Part shown: piece after piece, positions 3,036 to 61,298 of the stretch
How positions within the stretch are numbered: position 1 is the stretch's first letter
Layout: every line of letters begins with the position of its first letter
Source of the DNA: a virus
IMG/VR virus record: IMGVR_UViG_3300008110_006716
Span: 1-62,472 of that record
Length of the DNA stretch: 62,472 nucleotides
Reading direction: 5' to 3' (one strand)
The notes under the pieces: model-generated
Seen by the model: the letters and a program-made list of their open reading frames with translations, nothing else
Told to the model about the DNA's origin: nothing
Databases searched by the model: none
Position numbers and translations under genes: made by a program

Positions 3036-3644
3036 TTATTTCTTTCTTTTTGTTGGTTTTTTTATTTTAACGTCAGTTTTCTTTTCCTTTTCGTTATACG
3101 TTAAAATAAATTTAGAACCTTTTTCAGGATTATCAGTTAAAATTTTTTCTGTGATTGCATCATCCACCCACTTCTGAACCGTTCTTTTTAGAATACGTGC
3201 CCCAAATCTTGTATCAGTACCAACCTCAGTTAAATGTTTTTTCAAAGTACCATCAACCTCAACTGTGTATTCTAATTTTTCAATTCTTTCATAGAATTTA
3301 TTTAACTCTAAATCAACAATCTTTAATAAATCATCTTGGTTTAAATCTTTGAAGTATACGATGTCATCAAAACGGTTGATGAATTCAGGTGCAAACTTTT
3401 TGAACAATTCTTTTTCTAACAAAGATTTAATTTCCTCGTCTTTTCTTTCGGTTTTTGTTGATGTTGAAAACCCAACTCCTGTACCAAAATCCTGAACTAC
3501 TTTTGTACCTACGTTTGATGTCATTAAAATGATACAATTTTTGAAATTAATTTTTCTTCCATGACCATCAGTCAACATACCTTCATCTAACATTTGTAAA
3601 AATACATTAAAGATTTCAGGGTGTGCTTTTTCAATCTCATCTAA
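3036..3644 (-). CDS. ClpC/ClpB-type AAA+ ATPase, C-terminal fragment
   Basis: Second AAA+ module (D2) from its Walker B region to the end. It opens with [20 protein letters not shown], the D2 Walker B and following helix, then sensor 1 (LMTSNVG), an Arg-finger region (FINRFDDIVYF) and the small D2 domain with sensor 2 GARILKRTVQ. The C-terminus is Lys-rich. No ATG occurs before residue 18 of this frame. The sequence joins directly to the preceding fragment's EDALI with about 40-45 residues of the usual D2 missing, including the GYVGY pore loop region. As written this fragment could not form a working ATPase. Confidence 0.85.
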   Translation of the reverse strand, partial: LDEIEKAHPEIFNVFLQMLDEGMLTDGHGRKINFKNCIILMTSNVGTKVVQDFGTGVGFSTSTKTERKDEEIKSLLEKELFKKFAPEFINRFDDIVYFKDLNQDDLLKIVDLELNKFYERIEKLEYTVEVDGTLKKHLTEVGTDTRFGARILKRTVQKWVDDAITEKILTDNPEKGSKFILTYNEKEKKTDVKIKKPTKRKK

Positions 3645-4270
3645 ATAAGTGCGTCCTCACTATTGAACATGTGTTTTGCCAATTGTTTTGCCAACTCAGT
3701 TTTACCAACGCCTGAATTACCAATCAACAATCCACTAAAGATTGGTTTTTTGGGGTCATTAAGACCGACGCGGTTTCTTTGAATTGCTCTTGCAATTTTT
3801 GCCACAGCATCGTCCTGACCGATTACCCTTGTCGATAACGTATCTTTTAATGTAATAAGTTGTGAAGTCTCATCTGTAGTAATCTTATTGATTGGAATTT
3901 TTGTCATCAAAGAAACTACATCATAAACAACGTCTTCAGTTACCTCACGACGGTATAAATCTCTATTTTCTTCAAACTTTCGTTTTTCGTTTTCAAGTTC
4001 AGCTAAAACCTTTCTTTCTTTATCACGAAGATTTGCGGCTTCCTCATATTTTTGTTTGTTGATTACGTCTAATTTTTCCTCTTTGATTTTAGCAGCCTCT
4101 TTTTTAAGTTCCTCAATAATTTCAGGTAATTTAATTTCTACCTGTGAACGTGCACCAACCTCATCAATAATATCAAACGCTTTATCAGGAAACTCACGGT
4201 CTGTAATATATCTATCTGCCAATTCAACACATAGTTTTAGTATATCATCACTATAACTTACTTTGTGGTG
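3641..4270 (-). CDS. ClpC-type AAA+ ATPase, middle fragment
   Basis: Contains the end of D1 ([20 protein letters not shown], then [17 protein letters not shown]), the coiled middle domain with a UVR-like [12 protein letters not shown] segment as in ClpC, and the start of D2 with Walker [11 protein letters not shown]. The frame opens at 4270 after a stop; the first ATG in it is at 4222. It ends in ALI-TAG at 3641 where the D2 sequence is cut. The upstream fragment stops at 4258 with about 30-40 residues of D1 small domain and Arg-finger region missing between them. Together the three pieces are one ClpC-like gene with two scars. Confidence 0.85.
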
Positions 4271-4830
4271 TCAATATTTTTACGATACTCCTCCAATGTG
4301 GTTGCACCAATACATTGTAATTCTCCACGGGATAATGCTGGTTTGAAGATGTTGGATGCGTCCATAGAACCTGATGAATTACCCGCACCAATCATAGTAT
4401 GAATTTCATCAATAAAAACAATAATGTCAGGATGGTCATATAACTCCTCCATAATTACTTTCATTCGTTCTTCAAATTGACCACGATATTTTGTACCAGC
4501 AACTACAGATGTCATATCTAAAGAAACTATTCTTTTACCCGCCAAATTTTGTGGACAATCACCCTCAAAGATTTTCTTAGCTAATCCTTCCACAATTGCG
4601 GTTTTACCACAACCTGGTTCACCAATTATAATTGGGTTATTTTTCTTTCTACGAGAAAGGATTTGAGCAATCCTATTAATCTCATCTTCCCTACCAATTA
4701 CAGGGTCTAATTTACCTTCTTCTGCGGCTTTGATTAAATCACGAGAAAAGTTATCTAAAACAGGTGTTTTTGATGAGCTATCTTGTGTTTTGTTTTTTGG
4801 TTTTTCGTTTCCGTCTGCTGAGTCAATCAT
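4258..4830 (-). CDS. clpC-like: ClpC-type AAA+ ATPase, N-terminal fragment
   Basis: First AAA+ module: Walker A GEPGCGKT at residues 70-77, pore loop KYRG near 114-117, Walker B VFIDE near 138-142, sensor 1 GATT near 175-178. The usual Clp N-terminal repeat domain is absent; residues 1-22 are a disordered Lys/Ser-rich leader. Hsp100 proteins of this type unfold substrates for ClpP or disaggregate them; no ClpP gene is in the window, so a phage version would have to use host ClpP or act alone. It reads into a stop after NIDTTK at a scar. Divergently transcribed from a double-UVR protein, a domain also used by ClpC adaptors such as McsA. Confidence 0.87.
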
Positions 4831-8478: not shown

Positions 8479-9118
8479 TAAAATAGCAAAACTTTTACAC
8501 GAAGGGTTTTCGATGACAACTTTAGAAGGACTTAACGAAAAACAATTATCTGTTTTATTTAATAAAATTGTTTCAGAACAACCTAAACCTATTGAAAAAA
8601 CAGTCACATCTAAAGTAATCGAATTACCCACAGGTGCAAAGACGGCTTTGGGTGGTGCAACCGTATCAAATGAAGCCGGTAAAACTGTTATCACCACAAC
8701 ACCAACAGAAGGTGAAATTGGTGAAGAAGAGGAAGTAGATGTTACAAATGTGGATAAAGGTGAGGACGACCAAGACCCAATTCAAATACAAGGTCCTGAT
8801 GGGATGGGTGAAGGTTACATTTCAGAAAAGGCAGTTTCAAAACAACAACAAAAAATTATGGGTTTAGCACTTTCAGTTAAAAGAGGTGATACTCCTAAAT
8901 CAAAAGTTTCTAAACAAGTTCAAAAAATGGCAAAAGAAATGACAAAAAAAGAACTTGAGGATTTTGCTTCAACAAAACATAAAGGTTTACCTAAAACAGT
9001 TGATGAAAAAGAGGAAGTAGAAAAATTAGAGGAAAGTATCTTAAGAATTATTGAAAATCATTTACCTCCTCACACTACAAAAGGTGAATTACTAAATTAT
9101 ATTAGAAGAAACAAATAA
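8471..9118 (+). CDS. DUF3008-like phage protein upstream of terminase
   Basis: About 215 residues from the ATG at 8471; an in-frame ATG at 8459 is possible but lies deeper in the upstream gene. The central part (SKQQQKIMGLALSVKRGD ... KMAKEMTKKELEDFASTKHKGLP) matches the DUF3008 pattern known from T4-like phages, ending in the characteristic FASTKHKGLP. The preceding 90 residues are acidic and Val/Thr-rich. The gene ends three bases before the terminase start. Function unknown; it occupies a place where small terminase subunits occur, but the sequence does not look like gp16. Confidence 0.72.
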   Translation: MNNKIAKLLHEGFSMTTLEGLNEKQLSVLFNKIVSEQPKPIEKTVTSKVIELPTGAKTALGGATVSNEAGKTVITTTPTEGEIGEEEEVDVTNVDKGEDDQDPIQIQGPDGMGEGYISEKAVSKQQQKIMGLALSVKRGDTPKSKVSKQVQKMAKEMTKKELEDFASTKHKGLPKTVDEKEEVEKLEESILRIIENHLPPHTTKGELLNYIRRNK

Positions 9119-9121
9119 TGA

Positions 9122-10897
9122 ATGTCTCTTTCAAAAGAACAAATACTATTAGAATATGCTAAATGTGCTCATGATACACCATATGCACTAAGAACATATT
9201 TACAAACCTACGATAACACACAATCCAAATACGTACCGTTAGAATTATTTAATGACCAAGTAACTTTGGTTAAGGATTATGATACTTGTGAAGAAAATAT
9301 CGCACTTAAGTATCGTCAGGCCGGTGTATCAACAGTAACATCTGCATGGGCATCAAAACGATTGGTATTTGCTAAAAAATCAAAACCAGAAAAAATCCTA
9401 ATTATTGCAAACAAACTTGATACTGCCGTGGAAATGGCGAATAAAGTTCGTGCGTTTGTAGAACAATGGCCAAGTTGGTTAGGTGTTGGGTTTTCTCCTG
9501 AGAAAAATGCAGCAAGACACTTTAAGTTAACTAATGGTTGTGAGGTTAAAGCTGTGGCAACATCAAAAGATGCACTTCGTGGTTATACCCCTACTATTCT
9601 TATTTTTGATGAGGCAGCATATATTGATGCAGATGAAGATTTCTGGTCTGCTTGTATGGCGTCCCTTTCAACGGGAGGTAAAGTAATCGTGATTTCAACA
9701 CCAAACGGATTCGACCCAATCTATTATTCAATCTATAGTCAGGCTGTTAAAGGTATGAATGACTTTAGAATTACAGAAATGTATTGGTTTCGTGACCCTC
9801 GTTATTCTAAAGACTTAAAACTTGTTAAAGTAGAAGATATAATTCACTATATGTTAAATAGGGGTGATTATAGAGATGAGGATATTGTATTAGACTATTC
9901 TGAGATTAAAGTTGCGGATAGAGATTTTGAAGAAATAAAACAAAAAATAGAAAAGGGTTATAAACCTTATTCGTCGTGGTTTGAAGCCATGTCAAAAAAA
10001 TTAAAGTTTGATAAACGTAAAATTTCACAAGAGTTAGAGTGTAACTTTTTAGGTTCAGGGGATAACGTAATTCCACCTGAAACCATGAAAAAAATCAAAG
10101 AAAATTTTATAAAAGAACCTGAAAATAAATTTATGGGTGGTGCTTTGTGGCAGTGGAAAGAACCAATTGCAGGTCACAAGTACATTATGGGTATTGACGT
10201 TTCTCGTGGTGATAGTGAAGACTTTACAACTTTTACTATTATTGATTTTGATGATAGAGAACAAGTGTTAGAATATATTGGAAAAGTCCCGCCTGATGTG
10301 GTTGCAGAAATTGCTTTCAAATGGGCAACTATGTATAACGCATTTATCGTTACCGATATTACTGGTGGTATGGGGGTTGCTACTTCCCGTAAATTACAAG
10401 AACTTGGTTATAAAAATCTTTATGTTGATGGAATAAATCCTGCCGATAAATGGAAATGGGACCCAAAACAGAATGATAAAATACCTGGTATTAATTTTAA
10501 TTCGAAAAGAGTTTTAATTGTTCAGGCGTTTGAAGAGGCTTTAAGATTTGGGTTTATTATAAGGTCTCAGAGGTTATTTAATGAACTTAATACGTTTGTA
10601 TACGTGAATGGTAGACCTGACCACCAAAAAGGTCAACATGATGATTTAATTATGGCTATGGCCATGGCAATTTATGTTGGTGAATCGTCATTCGCTAAAT
10701 TAGAGAAAGCAACAGAACAAGCAAAGGCGATGATTGAGTCTTGGACAACAGAAAAACGTGATTTCAGAGATTCTTCACAAAATTTTAATCCGGGGTTACC
10801 TGTTGACATATATAACCAATACAGAATGGGTGGGTATCAATCAACAAAGAATGATTATGAAAAGTATTTATGGTTATTCAGTAACAAAAGAGTTTAA
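9122..10897 (+). CDS. gp17: Terminase large subunit (T4 gp17-like)
   Basis: 591 residues, close to the usual 600. DNA-packaging motor: an N-terminal ATPase and a C-terminal RNase H-like nuclease that cuts concatemers. Walker A variant KYRQAGVST at residues 63-71, Walker B ILIFDEAAY with the DE pair at 163-164, coupling motif STPNG near 192. Nuclease acidic residues: GIDVSRGDSED near 357-367, VTDITGG near 408 and QHDDLIMAMAMA in the last quarter. All expected parts are present and continuous, unlike several other conserved genes here. Followed after 38 bp by the portal gene, which is T4-like order without gp18/gp19. Confidence 0.96.
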   Translation: MSLSKEQILLEYAKCAHDTPYALRTYLQTYDNTQSKYVPLELFNDQVTLVKDYDTCEENIALKYRQAGVSTVTSAWASKRLVFAKKSKPEKILIIANKLDTAVEMANKVRAFVEQWPSWLGVGFSPEKNAARHFKLTNGCEVKAVATSKDALRGYTPTILIFDEAAYIDADEDFWSACMASLSTGGKVIVISTPNGFDPIYYSIYSQAVKGMNDFRITEMYWFRDPRYSKDLKLVKVEDIIHYMLNRGDYRDEDIVLDYSEIKVADRDFEEIKQKIEKGYKPYSSWFEAMSKKLKFDKRKISQELECNFLGSGDNVIPPETMKKIKENFIKEPENKFMGGALWQWKEPIAGHKYIMGIDVSRGDSEDFTTFTIIDFDDREQVLEYIGKVPPDVVAEIAFKWATMYNAFIVTDITGGMGVATSRKLQELGYKNLYVDGINPADKWKWDPKQNDKIPGINFNSKRVLIVQAFEEALRFGFIIRSQRLFNELNTFVYVNGRPDHQKGQHDDLIMAMAMAIYVGESSFAKLEKATEQAKAMIESWTTEKRDFRDSSQNFNPGLPVDIYNQYRMGGYQSTKNDYEKYLWLFSNKRV

Positions 10898-10935
10898 TTT
10901 AACACGGATGAACTTATTATTTAAATAAAAAAATT

Positions 10936-12750
10936 ATGGCAGAACAAAAATATACGGTATGGCAAAGGTTGGGTAAGGTTTTTGGACCTAACGCTACTTT
11001 AGACCAACAAACGCCGGTTTTCAAGTTTGATAAAAAAGAACTATTAAAAACCACAGATAAGTCTGAGTTTGAAAAGGAAAAACTACAAGCCCAACAAACC
11101 ATGTATATTGGTAAACAGTGGCAAAAAGTTGAAAGTAACTTGTATACTCAAGCGGTTTATTATGAACCAACTCGTATGGCATCATATTATGATTATGAGT
11201 CTATGGAGTATACTCCTGAGATTTCTGCAGCGTTGGATATCTATGGTGAAGAATCTACAACACCCGATAAAGATGGATATATGTTACAGATTTATTCTGA
11301 ATCAAAAAGAATAAAATCAGTATTGGCTGACCTTTTCAATAATAGATTAGACATTAATACCAACTTACCAATGTGGACAAGAAACACTTGTAAGTTTGGT
11401 GATAATTTTGTGTATTTAAAACTAGACCCTGAGAAAGGAATTGTTGGTTGTCAACAATTACCTAATATTCAAATCGAAAGATTGGAAAAAGGGATGAGGT
11501 TCCAACCGGATAAGTATTCTCAAGAAATGGAAAACGATGCATTGAAGTTTACTTGGAAAGAAAAGAATATGGAATTTAACACTTGGGAAGTAGCTCACTT
11601 TAGAATTTTAGGTGATGATAGAAAACTACCTTATGGTACATCAATGTTAGAAAAAGCAAGACGTATTTGGAAACAACTTTTATTATCTGAGGATGCAATG
11701 TTAATATATCGTGTATCAAGAGCACCTGAAAGAAGAGTGTTCAAGGTGTTTGTTGGTAATATGGATGATAAAGACGTTGATGCTTACGTACAAAGAGTTG
11801 CTAATAAATTTAAAAGAGACCAAATCGCAGACCCGTCAACAGGTAATGTGGATATGAGATATAACCAACTTGCGGTAGACCAAGATTATTTTATACCTGT
11901 TCGTGACCAAGCGGCAACAAATCCAATAGAAACTTTACCGGGTGGAACAAACTTGGCAGAGATTGCAGATATTGAATATATCCAAAAGAAACTTGTAACG
12001 GCATTAAGAATACCTAAGGCTTATTTAGGTTTTGAAGAAGCTGTTGGTGATGGTAAAAACTTATCGTTGTTAGATATTAGATTTGCAAGAACAATCAATA
12101 GAATTCAAAAATCTATGATTGCAGAATTAAATAAAATAGCAATCATCCATCTTTTCTTATTAGGTTTTGAAGATGAATTAACAAACTTTACTTTAGGGTT
12201 GACTAACCCATCTAAACAATCCGATTTATTAGGTATTGAGGTTTGGAAAGAAAAGATTCTTCTTTATAAAGATGCTGTTGCTGAGATTGCAAATAGTGTT
12301 GCGCCTGTATCCGCTTCTTGGGCTAAGAAACACATTTTAGGATTCTCTGACGAAGAAATCAGATTAGACATCCAACAACAGAGAGTAGAAAGAGCGGTTG
12401 CAGCTGAATTAGCAAAAACCGCTGAGGTAATCACTAATACAGGTTTATTTGATACAATAGATAAACTATACGGTAAGAAAGATAGTGAAAAACCTGCTGA
12501 AGGTGGTGATACAGGAGCACCTGATATGGGTGGAGCGCCTGATATGGGTGGAGCACCACCGATGGGAGGAGAGTCACCAGCACCTGAGGCTGGAGGGGCT
12601 GAGTTGGCACCTGAATCATTCAATAAAGATGACCTAAATTTACTACTTGAAGAACATTTATTTGGTCAAAATGATTTTATGAATTTAGGTAAAGCAAGAA
12701 ATTCATTAGTAGAAATAGATGATAAACTGAAAGATTTGTTAGACAGATAA
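10936..12750 (+). CDS. gp20: Portal vertex protein (T4 gp20-like)
   Basis: 604 residues, somewhat longer than T4 gp20 (524). Forms the dodecameric portal at the head vertex through which DNA passes. Recognisable T4-portal segments: YTPEISAALDIYGEE, FGDNFVYL, RAPERRVFKVFVGNM, a TLPGGTNLAEIADIEY loop and the RIPKAYLGFEE segment. After about residue 520 it has a disordered Gly/Ala/Pro/Met extension with an 18-bp repeat (GAPDMG units) and a short helical tail. Start at 10936 preceded by an A-rich tract, no Shine-Dalgarno. Lies between terminase and a coiled-coil gene as in T4-like head clusters. Confidence 0.95.
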   Translation: MAEQKYTVWQRLGKVFGPNATLDQQTPVFKFDKKELLKTTDKSEFEKEKLQAQQTMYIGKQWQKVESNLYTQAVYYEPTRMASYYDYESMEYTPEISAALDIYGEESTTPDKDGYMLQIYSESKRIKSVLADLFNNRLDINTNLPMWTRNTCKFGDNFVYLKLDPEKGIVGCQQLPNIQIERLEKGMRFQPDKYSQEMENDALKFTWKEKNMEFNTWEVAHFRILGDDRKLPYGTSMLEKARRIWKQLLLSEDAMLIYRVSRAPERRVFKVFVGNMDDKDVDAYVQRVANKFKRDQIADPSTGNVDMRYNQLAVDQDYFIPVRDQAATNPIETLPGGTNLAEIADIEYIQKKLVTALRIPKAYLGFEEAVGDGKNLSLLDIRFARTINRIQKSMIAELNKIAIIHLFLLGFEDELTNFTLGLTNPSKQSDLLGIEVWKEKILLYKDAVAEIANSVAPVSASWAKKHILGFSDEEIRLDIQQQRVERAVAAELAKTAEVITNTGLFDTIDKLYGKKDSEKPAEGGDTGAPDMGGAPDMGGAPPMGGESPAPEAGGAELAPESFNKDDLNLLLEEHLFGQNDFMNLGKARNSLVEIDDKLKDLLDR

Positions 12751-12757
12751 TATTTAT
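12751..12757 (+). promoter_or_regulatory. TATTTAT motif before 12769
   Basis: It begins immediately after the portal stop codon (12748-12750) and lies 11 nt before the ATG at 12769, so it may re-initiate late transcription within the head cluster. Confidence 0.4.
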
Positions 12758-12768
12758 AATAAAAAAAG

Positions 12769-13500
12769 ATGAACAAATTTGGACAATTAAAAACTAATAT
12801 AGAAAAAACAAGTATTGATTTATTTGGTAAAAATAGATTTAATCAATTTATGAAGGAATTCAAATCTAATATTTTAGAGAATAGAGACTTGAGTGAAATT
12901 TTCTTCATTTATGATGACTTATCATCAAAAAAAGGAATGGATAAGGATATCGCAACAGACTATGTAAATGAATCAATCGAGTATTGTCAAATTTTAATTG
13001 ATAACAATAAGACTAAAATATCTAAGTTATCTGAGTGGGTTTCATCTTACAATAGTAATACTGAAAACAATTATAAGAATATTGATACAATCATTTATAA
13101 TAACTCAATTAAAAACTTAGAGACAGTATTAGAATCTAAAAAACAAATTATATCTAACTTAATTTCTGAAGGTGTAAAAAAAGAAATTAAAGAATCAGTT
13201 AACTTACCATTATCAACTATGGTTAAAGTTGCCGAAGACAATTTAAAAAATGAACTAGCTAATCTAAGTGAATCAGACAAAAAAGAAATCACATCGATTT
13301 CATCATTATCTAAAGAGGAGTTAGAAAAAGAATTTAACACACTTAAAGAGTCTGTAATAACTAATTTAAAAGGTTCATTAAACGAATCAAAAGAAGATGA
13401 AATTAAAACTATGATTGGTCAAACAATTACAAAAATTTCAGATTCAAAATGTACTCACTACGATTTATATAAGTTGAGAAAATTACACCAAGGACTATGA
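12769..13500 (+). CDS. Hypothetical helical protein in the gp20-gp21 interval
   Basis: 243 residues, almost entirely helical and Ser/Lys/Glu/Asn-rich, with no Cys-rich or enzyme motif. In T4 the interval between gp20 and gp21 encodes the small prohead core proteins gp67 and gp68; position and helical character make a prohead core or assembly role possible, but there is no sequence match I can claim. It overlaps the next gene by four bases (ATGA), so the two are translationally coupled. Confidence 0.65.
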   Translation: MNKFGQLKTNIEKTSIDLFGKNRFNQFMKEFKSNILENRDLSEIFFIYDDLSSKKGMDKDIATDYVNESIEYCQILIDNNKTKISKLSEWVSSYNSNTENNYKNIDTIIYNNSIKNLETVLESKKQIISNLISEGVKKEIKESVNLPLSTMVKVAEDNLKNELANLSESDKKEITSISSLSKEELEKEFNTLKESVITNLKGSLNESKEDEIKTMIGQTITKISDSKCTHYDLYKLRKLHQGL

Positions 13501-13790
13501 GTAAAAAATACTTTTTTGGTTGGGGTAACATAAAAAAAGGTATTACTGAAATAATCAGAATCTATTCAGAGAAACCATCTTTCTTTTCTAAGAAGAGAAT
13601 AGAATCAGGAATTGCTTTTATAATAGCCGAGTGGGGTATGATATTTTTCTTACTTAAAAAGTACCCAAATTTAACCATGACAGATTTAGTCATGTGGGCA
13701 ACAGTTCAGTTCGGAGTTTCGGGATACATTATATATCAAATACAAAAAGAAAAAAAGTTTGAGAAACCAAATGAAAATCAAGAAAGTTGA
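13497..13790 (+). CDS. Small membrane protein, holin candidate
   Basis: 97 residues. A positively charged N-terminus (residues 1-40) is followed by two hydrophobic stretches, about 42-57 (IAFIIAEWGMIFFLLK) and about 64-81 (MTDLVMWATVQFGVSGYI), then a charged Lys/Glu tail. Two membrane segments with a charged C-terminus would suit a holin or another small phage membrane protein. No lysis enzyme lies beside it, so the holin call is tentative. Its 3' end overlaps by about 12 bases the stop of the opposite-strand bS21 gene. Confidence 0.6.
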   Translation: MSKKYFFGWGNIKKGITEIIRIYSEKPSFFSKKRIESGIAFIIAEWGMIFFLLKKYPNLTMTDLVMWATVQFGVSGYIIYQIQKEKKFEKPNENQES

Positions 13791-13969
13791 TTTTTAAGTT
13801 TTTGAATATATTGCGCTCTTTTTTTCTCACTTCTCCTTTTAACAGAATTCTTTGTAAACTCTTGTCTATCTCGTAATTGTTCAGTTTGCTTTGTCTTATA
13901 AACTTTAAATTTATATTGTTTCAAAGCCTGTTCAATTGAAGACGCATTTTTTACTTTAATTATAATCAT
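13778..13969 (-). CDS. rpsU: Ribosomal protein bS21 homologue
   Basis: 63 residues, the usual bS21 length. It follows bS21 along its whole length: MIIIKVKNASSIEQALKQYK at the N-terminus, a basic middle with LRDRQEFTKNSVKRR, and a C-terminal AQYIQKLKNQ as in Bacteroidota homologues. bS21 sits on the 30S platform near the anti-Shine-Dalgarno end of 16S rRNA; in Bacteroidota bS21 takes part in hiding that sequence. A phage copy could replace the host protein and bias initiation toward phage messages (inference). It is the only minus-strand gene inside the head cluster and has its own TATTTAT motif at 13989-13995 (complement). Confidence 0.93.
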   Translation of the reverse strand: MIIIKVKNASSIEQALKQYKFKVYKTKQTEQLRDRQEFTKNSVKRRSEKKRAQYIQKLKNQLS

Positions 13970-13988
13970 ATTTTTTTTACTTTATAAT

Positions 13989-13995
13989 ATAAATA
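13989..13995 (-). promoter_or_regulatory. TATTTAT motif upstream of bS21
   Basis: The complement reads GTATATTTATATTATAAAG, 19 nt before the bS21 ATG. The antisense placement inside the head cluster means bS21 must have its own promoter. Confidence 0.45.
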
Positions 13996-14072
13996 TACGG
14001 AAAAAAGTCAATTTTGACATTTTTTATTTTTAGACTTACATTTAAAAAAAATAAACCTGAAAGTTATGATTA

Positions 14073-14522
14073 ATGAAAAAAGGAAAAACATCAAAATTAA
14101 ACATTTTTGATGATGCAAAATGTCTCTACGGTACAGTAGATTCAAAAAATTTAAAATCCATTTATGTGGTACTACAGACTTGGATTGAACCATTGAGTAT
14201 AGATGAAAATTGGAACCGATTAGTTGGTGAAATAAAAAGACAAATACAACATACATTATTAGAAGTAGTAGATACCCAAACATTCGAAAGAAAACAAATT
14301 GTAGATTTAGATTTAAGGACAAGTGGGATACAAAAAAATAAAAAAAGTTTTATGAATATTGAAATAACATTATTTGTTCATAACAACACACACGACTTTA
14401 AATCCCCAATATTAAAAGACAAAATTAAAAAAATAGTTTCTTGTGTTTATACTGACGATTTAAAAAATAATAAACATTTTACTCTTAGTAAGACAAAATC
14501 TGAAGAATTCAAAGAAAGCTAA
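14073..14522 (+). CDS. Hypothetical protein upstream of gp21
   Basis: 149 residues, basic, alternating strands and helices; motifs I can see are SIYVVLQTWIEPL and EVVDTQTFERKQIVDLDLRT, which suggest a compact alpha/beta fold. I recognise no family. It lies between the divergent bS21 gene and the prohead protease, which is preceded by its own TATTTAT motif directly after this gene's stop. A prohead assembly role is possible by position only. Confidence 0.65.
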   Translation: MKKGKTSKLNIFDDAKCLYGTVDSKNLKSIYVVLQTWIEPLSIDENWNRLVGEIKRQIQHTLLEVVDTQTFERKQIVDLDLRTSGIQKNKKSFMNIEITLFVHNNTHDFKSPILKDKIKKIVSCVYTDDLKNNKHFTLSKTKSEEFKES

Positions 14523-14529
14523 TATTTAT
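14523..14529 (+). promoter_or_regulatory. TATTTAT motif before the prohead protease
   Basis: It overlaps the end of the preceding stop codon TAA (14520-14522 region) and lies 14 nt before the ATG at 14544. Confidence 0.45.
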
Positions 14530-14543
14530 CTCTAAAAGAACTT

Positions 14544-15257
14544 ATGAAAATTTTAGGACCTAGCGATACAGGTAAAGGTATATTAGTTGAGTGGGATGCA
14601 GGGATTATTAACCCTAACGAACCACGTAATCAAAGTATTATACGTGAATCTTACGGACAATTAGAACATTCTAAACCATTTGAATTTTATGCAACTCTTC
14701 AAAAGTGGGGGGTTCCAAATAGAAACGGAAGAGTATATCCTGAAAAGATATTAAGAAGAGAATCTGAAAAATATCAAGACGCTATTAAACGTGGTATGTC
14801 CATTTCAGAATTAAATCACCCTGAATCTTCTTTAATTGACCTTGATAGAGTATCTCACCTTATCACAGAGATGTGGTGGGAAGGTAACGTATTAATGGGT
14901 AAGATTAAATTATTAACTACGCCAGGTTTTCATGAAAGAGGTATAGTATCATCTAAGGGTGATGTTGCAGCTAACATGATGAGACAAGGAGTTACTATGG
15001 GGGTATCTTCTCGCGGTGTTGGTTCATTAGTTAAAAAGGGTGACCAAAACGAAGTTCAAGACGATTTCGAATTAATTTGTTTTGACCTTGTATCTTCACC
15101 GTCCACACCTGGAGCATATCTTTACTTGAATAAAGAAGATAGACCAAGATATGAAGAAAAATTATCAGAACATGATAATACTTTAGTTAGTGTTGGAGGT
15201 GGATTAGAAAAATCTGTTGACTTAATGAAAAGATTGTCCGACTATTTAGGAAAGTAA
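14544..15257 (+). CDS. gp21: Prohead core serine protease (T4 gp21-like)
   Basis: 237 residues (T4 gp21 is 212). Cleaves the scaffold and capsid proteins during head maturation. The S78-type protease triad is visible: His92 in ELNHPE, Ser155 or Ser156 in GVSSRGVGS, and a downstream Asp in FELICFDLVSSPS. The N-terminal YATLQKWGVPNRNGRVYP stretch is typical of phage prohead proteases. Located just before the scaffold and capsid genes it would process, as in T4. Confidence 0.95.
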   Translation: MKILGPSDTGKGILVEWDAGIINPNEPRNQSIIRESYGQLEHSKPFEFYATLQKWGVPNRNGRVYPEKILRRESEKYQDAIKRGMSISELNHPESSLIDLDRVSHLITEMWWEGNVLMGKIKLLTTPGFHERGIVSSKGDVAANMMRQGVTMGVSSRGVGSLVKKGDQNEVQDDFELICFDLVSSPSTPGAYLYLNKEDRPRYEEKLSEHDNTLVSVGGGLEKSVDLMKRLSDYLGK

Positions 15258-15268
15258 AAAAATTTATT

Positions 15269-15478
15269 ATGGACGAAAAGTATTTTGTAGCAAAAATCAC
15301 AACTGATATGGTTGATGATAACACAGGTAAAGTTAAAAAAATGAGAGAAGAAAAACTTGTGAGAGGGTTTTCACCGACAGATGTCGAAGCAAAGGTAACG
15401 AAAGTTTACGAAACTTATTCAATGGATTGGAGAATTACAGCAATTGTTGAAAGTAAAATTGACGAAGTTATCGAATAG
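15269..15478 (+). CDS. DUF4494-like small protein
   Basis: 69 residues. The pattern (a KYFVAKIT strand, a REEKLVRGFSPTDVEAKVTKVYE middle, then an ITAIVESKIDEVIE end) resembles DUF4494, a small family found in Bacteroidota and their phages. Function unknown. It lies between the prohead protease and the core scaffold and ends just before a strong terminator, so it closes the protease transcript. The family match is from memory of the pattern and is moderate. Confidence 0.65.
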   Translation: MDEKYFVAKITTDMVDDNTGKVKKMREEKLVRGFSPTDVEAKVTKVYETYSMDWRITAIVESKIDEVIE

Positions 15479-15499
15479 TTTTTTAACAAATTTTTTAAG

Positions 15500-15523
15500 A
15501 AGGGACTTATGGTCCCTTTTTTT
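15500..15523 (+). terminator. Rho-independent terminator after the 69-residue gene
   Basis: AAGGGAC pairs with GTCCCTT (7-bp stem, loop about 5 nt), followed by a T run. It separates the protease unit from the scaffold/capsid unit. Confidence 0.88.
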
Positions 15524-15582
15524 ATGCTTTTAATTTTTTTCTTGTAAAGGTGGATAAATAAGAACTTTTTTGAATAACGATA

Positions 15583-15589
15583 TATTTAT
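15583..15589 (+). promoter_or_regulatory. TATTTAT motif before the core scaffold
   Basis: Full form AACGATATATTTAT (15576-15589), 14 nt identical to the copy upstream of 6528. The 37-nt leader before the ATG at 15627 contains no Shine-Dalgarno sequence. Confidence 0.55.
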
Positions 15590-15626
15590 TTAGTAAAATA
15601 AACGCATAACGCATTGCATTAAAAAA

Positions 15627-17135
15627 ATGAGTTTGGAAAAAAACGAAAATTTAGTCGAGAAAACTTTACTACAAATAAAGTCAATCGAGGAAGCTATAAG
15701 CGAAAACGCAAAAGGAATACTTGCTTCTACAATGAAGGAAGAAATCAGTGAATTAGTAAAGGAGTCATTATTTGGCACAAAATCAAAATCGTCTTTACAC
15801 GAGCAAGAAGAAGATGACACCGAAGAAGTGGTAGGTGTGGAAACTGACACAGAAGTTGCAGATGATAGTGAAGAGACAACAGACGTTGATGCTGAGGTTA
15901 ATCCTGAAGGTGGTGAATTTGATATCACTATGATGGATACCGATGTTGATACTGATAATGAAGACGAATTACCTCCCCTTGATATGACAGGGGCAAAACC
16001 TGATGAAGTATTGAAAGTGTTTAAGGCTATGGGTGATGAAGATGGAATTATCGTTGTTAGAGACGATAATAAAATACACCTTACTGACAACAACACCGAC
16101 ACTGAATACTTTATTGATTTAGGTGATGATTCAGAAATGCCAATGGAAGAACCTATGGAAGATATGAATGAGAGTGTGATTTATGAATTAGTCTTCGAAG
16201 AGGATGAAAAAATGGGTAAACACGAAATGGAAGAAGATTATATGGAGGAAGAAATAGACGAAGAAATTGACGAAACAATTTACGAATTGGAAGTTAGTGA
16301 GTCTATGAAACCTGTTGGTATGGGCTTCGGAAAAATGAAAAATGGTTTATCTAAATCATCTGTTAACAACAAAGGTTTCGATGAAGATATGGAAGATGGT
16401 ATTAAATCAGAGAAAAAAGGAAAAGGTCCTAAATTCAACTACGGTAAAATCAAACATGGTGTTACTGAAAACTACATGGAAGAAGATTACATGGAAGAAG
16501 GATGGATGGATGAAGAAATGATTGATGACATGAAAACCGAATCTGACTACATGGAAGGCGATTACATGAAAGGAGACTACATGGAAGGAGATTGTATGGA
16601 AGGTGATTGTATGGAAGGTGACGCTATGGTAGACGAATTACCTGGTGAAACTACAGAAGCATCAAGAACTATGACTTACATGAGAAGAGCACAAAGAGAC
16701 CGAGTTGCAGCACCAAGTCAATTAAGAAAAGAATCTGTTGAAAAAGAACTTAATTTATTAAGAGAGAAAAACGAAGAATACAAAAAAGCTTTAGACTTCT
16801 TTAGAAATAAATTAAATGAAGTAGCAGTATTCAACTCAAACTTGGCTTATTCTACTAGATTGTTCACTGAACACTCAACAACAAAACAAGAAAAAATAAA
16901 CATACTTAGAAGATTTGATAATGTTGAAACTATCAAAGAATCTAAATCACTTTACAAAGCAATTAAATCTGAATTAGACGGAGTAAGTAAAAGTAATGAA
17001 GTTGTAACTGAATCAGTTCAAAGAAAACTTGTTAACACTCCTTCAAATGGTTCAGCATCTAATTTGATTGAAAGTAAAACTTATGAAAATCCACAATTCT
17101 TAAGAATGAAAGATTTGATGGGAAAAATTAAATAA
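15627..17135 (+). CDS. gp22: Prohead core scaffold protein (T4 gp22-like)
   Basis: 502 residues, longer than T4 gp22 (269). It is highly acidic and helical, placed between the prohead protease and the major capsid protein as gp22 is in T4. Residues 50-130 are Asp/Glu/Thr-rich; residues about 170-340 carry Met/Glu/Asp repeats ending in five 15-bp units encoding DYMEG-type blocks. The C-terminal 150 residues form a coiled coil (KELNLLREKNEEYKKALDFF) that is the likely conserved scaffold core. Such scaffold is normally degraded by gp21 and leaves the head. Identification rests on position, composition and coiled coil. Confidence 0.82.
   Translation: MSLEKNENLVEKTLLQIKSIEEAISENAKGILASTMKEEISELVKESLFGTKSKSSLHEQEEDDTEEVVGVETDTEVADDSEETTDVDAEVNPEGGEFDITMMDTDVDTDNEDELPPLDMTGAKPDEVLKVFKAMGDEDGIIVVRDDNKIHLTDNNTDTEYFIDLGDDSEMPMEEPMEDMNESVIYELVFEEDEKMGKHEMEEDYMEEEIDEEIDETIYELEVSESMKPVGMGFGKMKNGLSKSSVNNKGFDEDMEDGIKSEKKGKGPKFNYGKIKHGVTENYMEEDYMEEGWMDEEMIDDMKTESDYMEGDYMKGDYMEGDCMEGDCMEGDAMVDELPGETTEASRTMTYMRRAQRDRVAAPSQLRKESVEKELNLLREKNEEYKKALDFFRNKLNEVAVFNSNLAYSTRLFTEHSTTKQEKINILRRFDNVETIKESKSLYKAIKSELDGVSKSNEVVTESVQRKLVNTPSNGSASNLIESKTYENPQFLRMKDLMGKIK
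16545..16619 (+). repeat. Five 15-bp repeats coding DYMEG/DCMEG
   Basis: Five consecutive 15-bp units (GAY TAC/TGT ATG RAA GGN) within the scaffold gene; the last two units are identical. They expand an acidic Met-rich segment. Confidence 0.85.
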
Positions 17136-17171
17136 ATAAACAATAAATAAACTCAAATTAAAAAAAATAAA

Positions 17172-17504
17172 ATGGGAGCATTATTAGAATCAGGTCTTGT
17201 TGGTAACATCGGGTTAAAACACCTTAAAGTTATCAAAGAAGATACAATCAACAAATGGGATAAATTAGGATTCCTAGACGGTCTTAAAGGACACATCAAA
17301 GAGAACATGGCACAGTTATATGAAAACCAAGCTTCTCACCTAATCAACGAAGCGGCTTCTACGGATAGCTCAGGTTCTTTCGAAACTGTAGTTTTCCCTA
17401 TCGTAAGACGTGTATTCTCTAAATTGTTGGCTAACGATTTAGTATCTGTACAAGCAATGAACTTACCTATCGGTAAATGCTTGGAGCAGCGGTCAATTAG
17501 TTGA
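17172..17504 (+). CDS. gp23: Major capsid protein gp23-like, N-terminal fragment
   Basis: First 102 or so residues of the T4-type major capsid protein. The segment FPIVRRVFSKLLANDLVSVQAMNLPIGK corresponds to the T4 gp23 region around VRRAIPNLIAFDICGVQPMNSPTGQ. At about 17475-17479 the sequence departs from the expected continuation and soon stops (CLEQRSIS then TAG). The remainder of the gene continues in another frame. The main head shell protein cannot be absent in a viable phage, so a sequence or assembly error is more likely than a true truncation. Confidence 0.9.
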   Translation: MGALLESGLVGNIGLKHLKVIKEDTINKWDKLGFLDGLKGHIKENMAQLYENQASHLINEAASTDSSGSFETVVFPIVRRVFSKLLANDLVSVQAMNLPIGKCLEQRSIS

Positions 17505-18741
17505 GTCAGCATATGCTGCGGGCGAATACAGAAAAGTTCTTTTAATTCTTTCAGGTTTCTCTAGTGCGGGTGCCGGTAAATTAATCGGACCTGAAGGTCA
17601 AGAAATGGATAATGAAGCTTTCTTATCTGATTTACAAGTTAACGCATTAACTGGTGTAGGTTCACCTGAAAGAGCATTCTCAGGAGCGGGTACTTCAGAC
17701 TTACTTTTCCGTGTAGTTACTCAAAAATATGGTAAAGGTATCGTTCAATACGGTTCACAACAAGCTACAACTTTCTACAGTGGTAGTTACAAGGGAAATG
17801 GTGGTTCTTATGACAATATCTGTGATGCAGCAGGTTTCATCTACTTAGAAGTTGATTTACAAGTACCATGTGCAATCGGAGCTAACTCAATTGATGGTTA
17901 CTCAGGTTTAACAACTACATTTGCCGCTGCGGCAGGAGGACAATTTTCATGTTCTTATAGAGTATACGAAGAATTAGAATTCGAAGACAAAATTGGTGAG
18001 GTTTCTTTCGACTTAGAATCAGTAACTGTTTCTGTAACTGAAAGAAAATTAAGAGCACAATGGTCTCCTGAATTGGCACAAGACGTTTCTGCATTCCATA
18101 ACATCGATGCTGAAGCTGAATTAACAGCTTTATTATCTGAGCAAGTAGCAGCAGAAATCGACCGTGAAATTTTACGTGACTTACGTAAAGGTGCAGCTTG
18201 GAACTTACGTTGGGACTACAACGGATGGAAAAGAGGTACTTCTTCTAACCCTTTAACTCAATACACTCAAAAAGATTGGAATCAAACATTGATTACAGCA
18301 ATTAACCAAATTTCAGCACAAATCCACAAATCTACATTAAGAGGTGGAGCTAACTGGATTGTTGTATCTTCTGAGATTTCCGCTATCTTTGACGATTTAG
18401 AATACTTCCACGTATCTAACGCGTCTCCTGAGCAAGACCAATACAACATGGGTATTGAAAGAGTTGGTACATTAGCTGGTCGTTACCAAGTTTACCGTGA
18501 CCCTTACTTCCCACCGAACACAGTATTGTTGGGACACAAAGGTTCTTCATTGTTAGATACTGGTTACGTTTACGCACCATATGTTCCTCTACAATTAACA
18601 CCTACAATGTATAACCCATTCAACTTCACACCTATCAAAGGTATCATGACAAGATACGCTAAGAAAATGGTTAACAACCGTTTCTACGGACGTATCACAG
18701 TTGATGGAGTTAGAACATTTGACTTGAGAGAATTGAGATAA
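17479..18741 (+). CDS. gp23: Major capsid protein gp23-like, C-terminal fragment (frameshifted)
   Basis: About 420 residues, the bulk of the HK97-fold capsid protein. In this frame AWSSGQLVESAYAAGEYRKV continues straight from the junction, although the first ATG is at 17605. Capsid landmarks: LRAQWSPELAQDVSAFHNIDAEAEL (compare T4 LKAAYSIELAQDLRAVHGMDADAEL), EIDREILRDL, ANWIVVSSEI, AGRYQVYRDPYFP and YAPYVPLQLTPTMYNPFNFTP. Followed by a GNRA-loop terminator, consistent with the end of the head transcript. Confidence 0.93.
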   Translation, partial: AWSSGQLVESAYAAGEYRKVLLILSGFSSAGAGKLIGPEGQEMDNEAFLSDLQVNALTGVGSPERAFSGAGTSDLLFRVVTQKYGKGIVQYGSQQATTFYSGSYKGNGGSYDNICDAAGFIYLEVDLQVPCAIGANSIDGYSGLTTTFAAAAGGQFSCSYRVYEELEFEDKIGEVSFDLESVTVSVTERKLRAQWSPELAQDVSAFHNIDAEAELTALLSEQVAAEIDREILRDLRKGAAWNLRWDYNGWKRGTSSNPLTQYTQKDWNQTLITAINQISAQIHKSTLRGGANWIVVSSEISAIFDDLEYFHVSNASPEQDQYNMGIERVGTLAGRYQVYRDPYFPPNTVLLGHKGSSLLDTGYVYAPYVPLQLTPTMYNPFNFTPIKGIMTRYAKKMVNNRFYGRITVDGVRTFDLRELR

Positions 18742-60209: not shown

Positions 60210-61298
60210 CTAAACAGACTTCTTTTTAATTTGTGTTGTATATTGGTCGTTTACAAACCCCCAATTCACAACTTTCCAAAAGTTTTTAATGTATTCGTCT
60301 CGTTTATTTTTATATTTTAAGTAGTACGCGTGTTCCCATAAATCTAAACCAAGTAATGGGTAACCATTTTCTTTTTCGGTATTCATTAAAGGATTATCTT
60401 GATTAGAAGTTGTAACAATTTTTAATCTATTATTTTTTGTTAAAATTAACCAAGCCCACCCTGAACCAAATTTAGTTTTAGCTTCTTCACTAAATTGCTC
60501 CTTGAATTTTTCAAACGAACCAAAATCTTTTTTTATTTTAGAAAGTATTGGGTCCGATACTTCTTGTTTTTTTGGCGATAACATCTTCCAAAACAAAGCG
60601 TGATTAAAAGCACCACCACCATTGTTTTTAACAACATTATTAAATTTTGAAATCTTTTCTACGATTTCTTCTAAATCTAAATCCTTACCTTTAATTTTTT
60701 CTAATTCAACATTTAGTTTTTCAACATAACCCTTGTAATGTTTGTTGTAGTGGGTATTCATTGTTTCACCATCAATAAATTTTTCTAAAGAGTTATAGTC
60801 ATATGGAAGTTTATCAACACTTACTTTTTTAATTTCGGTAATTAATAATTCTTTTTTTGAAGATTCAATTTCTAATAATGTTTCAATTTTTTCAATTTGC
60901 TCTGAAAAAGATTTATAGATAATTTTTTCCATATCCTTATTATTTTTTTCAAACTTTTTAATTTCTTGAGACGCCTGTGAACTTGCTTCATCTTCGTTTT
61001 TTCCACCAATATCTTTTCCTTTTTTTCTTTTCAAAACGGTTCGTTGGTATTCATGTGACCATTCATGAGCCAATGTTCTTAACACATCACGATTCAATCT
61101 ATCTTTTACTAAAATTTTAAGTTTGTTTTTATCGGTTCTCGAACCTGTAGTCATTTCGCCGGTTCTTTTATTTTGGAATACAATATCCAAATTATCCTCT
61201 AATGGGTAATTTTTTTTAAGTTGTGAAATAAAATCATTGATTAAAACTTTATCCTCTTTACTTGGCTCAATTCCAATATATTCAACATTTACGTCCAT
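60210..61298 (-). CDS. Zincin-like domain fused to Fe/Mn superoxide dismutase
   Basis: 362 residues. Residues 1-125: a small metallopeptidase-like domain with LAHEWSHEYQR (HExxH variant, His78, Glu79, His82) and downstream acidic residues. Residues about 163-362: Fe/Mn superoxide dismutase, with LPYDYNSLEKFIDGETMNTHYNKHY (His183), FNHALFWKML (His233), FGSGWAWLI and LDLWEHAYYLKYKNKR (Asp319, His323): all four metal ligands present. A helical linker joins them. SOD removes superoxide produced in infected aerobic hosts. The peptidase link is unusual. TATTTAT lies five nt upstream of its start. Confidence 0.88.
   Translation of the reverse strand: MDVNVEYIGIEPSKEDKVLINDFISQLKKNYPLEDNLDIVFQNKRTGEMTTGSRTDKNKLKILVKDRLNRDVLRTLAHEWSHEYQRTVLKRKKGKDIGGKNEDEASSQASQEIKKFEKNNKDMEKIIYKSFSEQIEKIETLLEIESSKKELLITEIKKVSVDKLPYDYNSLEKFIDGETMNTHYNKHYKGYVEKLNVELEKIKGKDLDLEEIVEKISKFNNVVKNNGGGAFNHALFWKMLSPKKQEVSDPILSKIKKDFGSFEKFKEQFSEEAKTKFGSGWAWLILTKNNRLKIVTTSNQDNPLMNTEKENGYPLLGLDLWEHAYYLKYKNKRDEYIKNFWKVVNWGFVNDQYTTQIKKKSV

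Follow-up and report, generated by a model that had tools for sequence, protein, structure and literature searches.

A phage bS21 gene in a head-gene cluster retains Tyr54 and lacks a Shine–Dalgarno sequence

The 62,472-nucleotide (nt) viral record IMGVR_UViG_3300008110_006716, analysed here at its full length (the window), encodes a copy of ribosomal protein bS21 on the strand opposite to the phage head genes. Judged from its sequence, the protein belongs to the bS21 family, retains the tyrosine at residue 54 (Tyr54), has a changed N-terminal helix and is under purifying selection; its gene follows a promoter-like motif and lacks a Shine–Dalgarno (SD) sequence. We propose, with a probability of about one half, that it is a working bS21 that replaces host bS21 on 30S subunits, keeps the anti-Shine–Dalgarno sequence (ASD) buried, presents a changed face to the message and is free of the feedback acting on the host gene, rpsU. 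Phages carry bS21 more often than any other ribosomal protein. In Bacteroidota the role of bS21 in message choice is known in molecular detail, and such phages are therefore a good test of the idea of a virus-made specialized ribosome.

An earlier note on this DNA, made without database searches, had recognized a phage-encoded bS21, and profile searches confirmed it. The product of a 63-amino-acid (aa) open reading frame (ORF) at 13778–13969 (−) matched PF01165 with 38.2 bits (cut-off 27; domain positions 2–52 of 55), the sole match to this family within the whole record, and also matched phrog_21469, ‘ribosomal protein S21’. The end given in the note, 13995, marks the outer limit of TATTTATA, the motif upstream of the gene (13995–13988 on the minus strand). 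The closest solved structures were the bS21 of Flavobacterium johnsoniae (7jil_z, E 7.6e-11) and another 63-aa bS21 (9i5v_9); both align ungapped, beginning at residue 1 of the phage protein, which is 47% identical to F. johnsoniae bS21 over the aligned protein.

Relatives were collected in three IMG/VR scans, which used short peptide patterns (FKVYKTKQ among them) and gave 233 loci, reduced to 66 distinct representatives; cellular bS21 sequences were chosen for likeness to the phage family. Residue 54 is Tyr in the window copy, in 60 of 64 phage sequences (the other four have His) and in all 69 cellular sequences. Stacking of Tyr54 on A1534 of 16S rRNA guides the 16S tail into the bS21–bS18–bS6 pocket, and the view that the window encodes an ASD-hiding type of bS21 agrees with the presence of this residue. 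Residues 37–54 are largely common to phage and cellular proteins. In the N-terminal half, a near-complete split between the two was found at residues 8–10, 14, 18, 21, 23, 24 and 28, the basic residues 14, 18 and 21 of cellular bS21 being replaced mainly by Q, Q/T/A and F, respectively, in phages; the sharpness of this split is partly a product of sampling, because of the peptide patterns used for the viral scans and the choice of cellular sequences by likeness. Arg21, Phe23, Asp25 and Thr28 had been flagged previously (Chen et al., 2022; PMC9723584).

The window gene looks uncoupled from SD autoregulation of the host type. Bacteroidota rpsU is exceptional in carrying an extended SD (−14 to −21 kcal/mol), which is read by bS21-free ribosomes (McNutt et al., 2023; PMC9976891). 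The rpsU leaders of several Flavobacteriaceae scored about −17 kcal/mol. Pairing of the phage leader with the ASD amounted to −0.8 kcal/mol, as calculated on the identical leader of contig L002 with the F. johnsoniae 16S tail, which served for all pairing energies and may differ from that of the true host; an extended strong SD is absent from the window gene. The A-rich character of phage starts, also remarked on in the earlier note, was evident throughout the window, where SD-like sites accompany one of 73 starts. The corresponding counts were 1/308 in a 292-kb relative and 2/95 in another set, and none of the three exceeded the reversed-motif control; A is enriched near −12/−13 and from −3 to −6.

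A minority of phage copies differs in this respect. When 68 distinct phage bS21 sequences were scored, three of them, forming one clade found in 12 contigs (L045–L049, L052, L053, L057, L058, L060, L061 and L063), reached −12.2 kcal/mol and five more reached −6.2, the others being weak. In the SD-bearing clade, AAAAGGAGG stands ∼8 nt before the bS21 ATG. A 166-kb record of this clade contains AAAGGAGG four times, which is not above the reversed control, and the motif has normal spacing to an ATG at bS21 alone. By the evidence of their leaders, then, most phage bS21 copies, that of the window included, lack the switch by which host bS21 limits its own production. Neither an SD nor a promoter of phage bS21 is discussed by Chen et al. 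(PMC9723584) or in the literature searched. Among cellular genes, many rpsU copies of the Muricauda/Flagellimonas group (L238–L296) have a conserved upstream AAATGAGATTGAACAGATAAA in common, and not a strong SD complementary to the F. johnsoniae tail, which suggests a different control or a different 16S tail.

The two control states might, tentatively, be two ways of winning a contest over the single SD-controlled gene of the host. SD-less copies, the majority, would be immune to feedback from bS21-free ribosomes and could still close the ASD and so shut off host rpsU, and the SD-bearing clade would capture the bS21-free ribosomes that otherwise serve rpsU. We hold this somewhat doubtful and treat the split as a lead, not a demonstration; it does reduce the general idea to a simple reporter experiment.

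The sequence upstream of bS21 carries a motif of phage type, as had been claimed. TATTTAT is the top over-represented 7-mer before window genes (14 occurrences against 2.1 expected), and of the 16 copies of TATTTATA in the window, 10 have a same-strand start no more than 38 nt downstream. All 63 phage bS21 genes with readable upstream sequence have TATTTA[TC] 22–29 nt ahead of the ATG. In the 292-kb relative, TATTTAT peaks 10–29 nt before starts, and the upstream zone holds 104 of 282 copies where 8.9 would be expected by area. The motif was commoner before genes with clear upstream DNA (62/133) than before genes without it (28/162). Both window-wide and in L395–L409, TATTTATA was seen 10–29 nt ahead of about one-third of genes. 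Read on the opposite strand it is TATAAATA, the T4 late promoter box, which was not enriched in the sense orientation.

Six relatives without bS21 bear on the function of the motif. The reverse-strand position that bS21 takes elsewhere (the slot) is occupied in L364, L375 and L376 by a lipoprotein-like ORF of 62–71 aa (MSTFKILIIVLLLSSCK...), ∼110 nt upstream of the homologue of the divergent gene 14073 (Table 1), and is empty in L331, L362 and L372. TATTTAT was present at the slot position with the lipoprotein-like ORF and absent from the empty slots. Because the motif is found in these loci only if the slot is filled, TATTTATA very probably serves as promoter of whichever gene fills the slot, giving a leader shorter than ∼20 nt, and it apparently needs no conserved −35 box. 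The slot itself resembles a cargo site unconnected with head assembly.

TGTCAAAA (in reverse reading), present in 62 of 63 bS21 loci, was considered as a −35 box of bS21 and rejected, its distance to gene 14073 being fixed also in the six loci without bS21. Since this spacing is constant with or without bS21, TGTCAAAA probably belongs to gene 14073. A likely promoter of that gene (TTTTGACA with TACATTTA), supported by this conservation of TGTCAAAA, resembles TTTG-N20-TAnnTTTG, which we take to be the Bacteroidota consensus. The late timing that the earlier note had attached to bS21 did not follow from the motif. In the 292-kb relative, the capsid and portal genes have no TATTTAT before them, and the genes for a primase and a DnaB-type helicase do, so that the motif is no proof of lateness.

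The bS21 arrangement was held in 66/66 distinct relatives, and every detected neighbour was antisense to bS21, gene 14073 and the protease gene lying upstream and gene 12769 and the portal gene downstream. Each of 14 bS21-bearing records had a single copy. The ratio of non-synonymous to synonymous substitution rates (dN/dS) was ∼0.07–0.14 for the window gene against relatives and 0.01–0.13 between close relatives, in those comparisons that allowed an estimate of dS, values that indicate purifying selection on phage bS21. When 66 phage sequences were placed in a tree with 69 cellular ones, on 64 alignment columns and mostly without a settled inner branching order, one long branch separated the phages (support 100/98). 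That the phage sequences form a single long-branched clade argues for long residence of the gene in this phage group and against a recent loan from any sampled host; a recent pick-up from a host is accordingly unsupported. A cultured relative was sought and not found, the weaker matches being confined to uncultured phages. Essentially all recovered cellular bS21 loci were from Bacteroidota, probably the host group. The G+C content (GC) was 30.8% for the 62-kb window fragment and 31.8% for the relative of 292 kb.

We envisage that phage bS21 takes the place of host bS21 on 30S subunits while particles are produced. Its C-terminal half, with Tyr54, would keep the 16S tail buried, so that the ribosome stays SD-blind, as suits the SD-less phage messages, and the altered N-terminal helix, which adjoins the message path, may alter the choice of messages that initiate efficiently. 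The bS21 message itself, with its very short, A-rich, SD-less leader, would be expected to be served by ordinary bS21-bearing ribosomes and thus to escape the circuit that raises rpsU. Since bS21-free ribosomes translate rpsU (McNutt et al.), any ASD-closing bS21 that fills them should stop it: each phage protein on a vacant 30S subunit would close the ASD and switch host rpsU off. It is our deduction that the protein enters 30S subunits by exchange, keeps the ASD buried, represses host rpsU and alters the choice of messages. McNutt et al. (PMC9976891) have speculated that phages may force an exchange of bS21, for example by means of a protease, with autoregulation as a counter-defence. The suggestion in the earlier note that phage bS21 enters the ribosome and alters initiation stands in part: it accords with the hypothesis put forward by Chen et al. 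(2022; PMC9723584), with metatranscriptomes of relatives, in which bS21 is transcribed late together with structural genes (same source), and with the retention of Tyr54, and it loses the argument from late timing of the motif.

Several points weigh against this proposal. Entry into the ribosome is on record for the bS21 of pelagiphage HTVC008M in Escherichia coli only, outside the present phage group, and there it cut ribosome activity to ∼5% in vitro (PMC6375957), so that a phage bS21 can also do harm. A Y54A mutant of F. johnsoniae grows normally, and Tyr54 by itself is therefore no proof that ASD control matters. The SD-bearing clade means that freedom from feedback is not universal, and the 16S tail of the host, itself deduced, may differ from the F. 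johnsoniae tail used here.

The phage copy might instead simply supplement dosage. bS21 joins the ribosome late in its assembly and is loosely bound there; if host rpsU drops in infection, the phage protein would keep ribosomes complete with message choice unchanged. bS21-free ribosomes start worse on SD-less messages according to the literature, phage messages are SD-less, and Tyr54 and the C-terminal half are retained, all in keeping with such a role. The N-terminal helix, however, differs at ∼9 positions family-wide, with three basic residues gone, a change that is needless for a pure supplement, and we consider this explanation rather unlikely, although it is the strongest of the rivals.

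Two further explanations appear improbable. Ribosomes with phage bS21 could serve host messages badly and so slow the host, phage messages escaping through another factor. The loss of basic residues from helix 1 would fit such sabotage, as would the ∼5% activity of ribosomes with the pelagiphage protein, but that E. coli-based in vitro test used a foreign host, expression of bS21 in relatives falls at a stage of bulk demand for structural proteins, and the A-rich, SD-less start rule is common to phage and host messages (the host rule being taken from the literature). The chances are equally slim that a small basic RNA-binding protein is packaged or used in head assembly. Chen et al. (PMC9723584) raised packaging as a possibility, and the gene lies in the head cluster in every relative; Tyr54, with its known role on the 16S tail, nevertheless points to the ribosome, and the slot, left vacant in some relatives and taken by an unrelated lipoprotein-like gene in others, looks like a cargo position apart from head assembly.

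The position of bS21 on the opposite strand inside the head cluster was as the earlier note had described it, the TerL, portal, protease and capsid genes, which are of T4 type, all being on the plus strand (Table 1). Window positions 9001–18724 match four other public contigs at 99.9–100%, apart from one deletion in the capsid gene, and the bS21 locus is identical in all four; the locus itself is therefore reliable. The capsid gene is broken by a 244-nt internal deletion (junction near 17478) and is intact in L002, L003, L005 and L006. A programmed frameshift was ruled out, as the deletion is peculiar to the present contig among the near-identical ones, and it probably reflects faulty assembly or else a rare variant.

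Table 1. Coordinates of the bS21 gene, its control region and the neighbouring head genes in the window.
Feature	Position	Strand	Evidence or occurrence
TerL	9122–10897	+	Profile matches PF03237 and PF07230, given jointly for TerL and portal
gp20-type portal	10936–12750	+	Profile matches PF03237 and PF07230, given jointly for TerL and portal
Conserved hypothetical protein, downstream side of bS21 (gene 12769)	12769–13500	+	62/66 relatives
Convergent neighbour, 97 aa, 13-nt overlap with bS21 3′ end	13497–13790	+	16/66 relatives
Phage bS21 gene, 63 aa, Tyr54	13778–13969	−	PF01165; ungapped 7jil_z alignment; conservation; purifying selection
Short A-rich leader, TTATAAAGTAAAAAAAAT before ATG, no SD	13970–13987	−	ASD pairing of identical L002 leader
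TATTTATA, promoter-like motif of bS21	13988–13995	−	63/63 phage bS21 genes; genome-wide enrichment; tracks slot gene
TTTTGACA (14012–14019) and TACATTTA (14037–14044), likely promoter of gene 14073	14012–14044	+	
Divergent neighbour, 149 aa, function not assigned (gene 14073)	14073–14522	+	Adjoins bS21 in 63–64/66 relatives
Prohead protease, S77 family	14544–15257	+	PF03420
gp23-type major capsid gene, two pieces (17172–17504 and 17605–18741)	17172–18741	+	PF07068, phrog_138

Gene 14073 probably corresponds to the gene that Chen et al. named bS21_CN. Its product was modelled with AlphaFold at a predicted local distance difference test score (pLDDT) of 86.6, and Foldseek gave weak matches to tail-terminator/neck proteins; no named protein was matched confidently by this fold, the likeness to tail terminators being weak at most. 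An obligate partnership with bS21 was ruled out because the gene is present in six loci without bS21.

Elsewhere in the window, a ClpA/ClpB-type AAA+ ATPase at 3036–4830 (−) is scattered over three ORFs that differ in frame and lack some stretches; in a relative a single gene of 681 aa (L403:5090–7135) is intact, and the break seems to be a fault of the type found in the capsid gene. The Clp-type ATPase lies ∼9 kb from bS21 in the window and in the 292-kb relative alike. A 362-aa protein encoded at 60210–61298 (−) combines a C-terminal Fe/Mn superoxide dismutase domain with a 160-aa N-terminal part of unrecognized kind. A cluster of sugar genes on one strand (∼25200–53300, −) includes glycosyltransferases, GDP-mannose dehydratase, DegT aminotransferase, UDP-galactopyranose mutase and FkbM methyltransferase.

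Among known systems, the pelagiphage HTVC008M (Mizuno et al., 2019; PMC6375957) is likewise a myovirus with its own bS21, which enters E. coli 70S ribosomes; in contrast to the present gene, its bS21 came from an alphaproteobacterial host, which implies a separate acquisition. Compared with F. johnsoniae bS21 (PMC9976891), the window protein keeps Tyr54 and the C-terminal half, but it is without the basic residues 14, 18 and 21, and its gene has none of the extended SD of the host rpsU. The closest likeness is to the Bacteroidetes myophages of clades a–e described by Chen et al. (2022; PMC9723584), which have genomes of 293–331 kb, GC of 31.0–33.7% and Bacteroidota hosts. These share with the window a reverse-strand bS21 among TerL, portal, prohead protease and capsid genes, an aromatic residue 54, freshwater jumbo-phage relatives, low GC and many sugar genes, and no essential difference was seen. 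That paper already gives the arrangement, argues from Tyr54, reports late expression in relatives and puts forward preferential translation as a hypothesis; it does not treat the leader, SD status, promoter-like motif or slot variants. What is new here is the evidence from the control region and the split between SD-less and SD-bearing copies.
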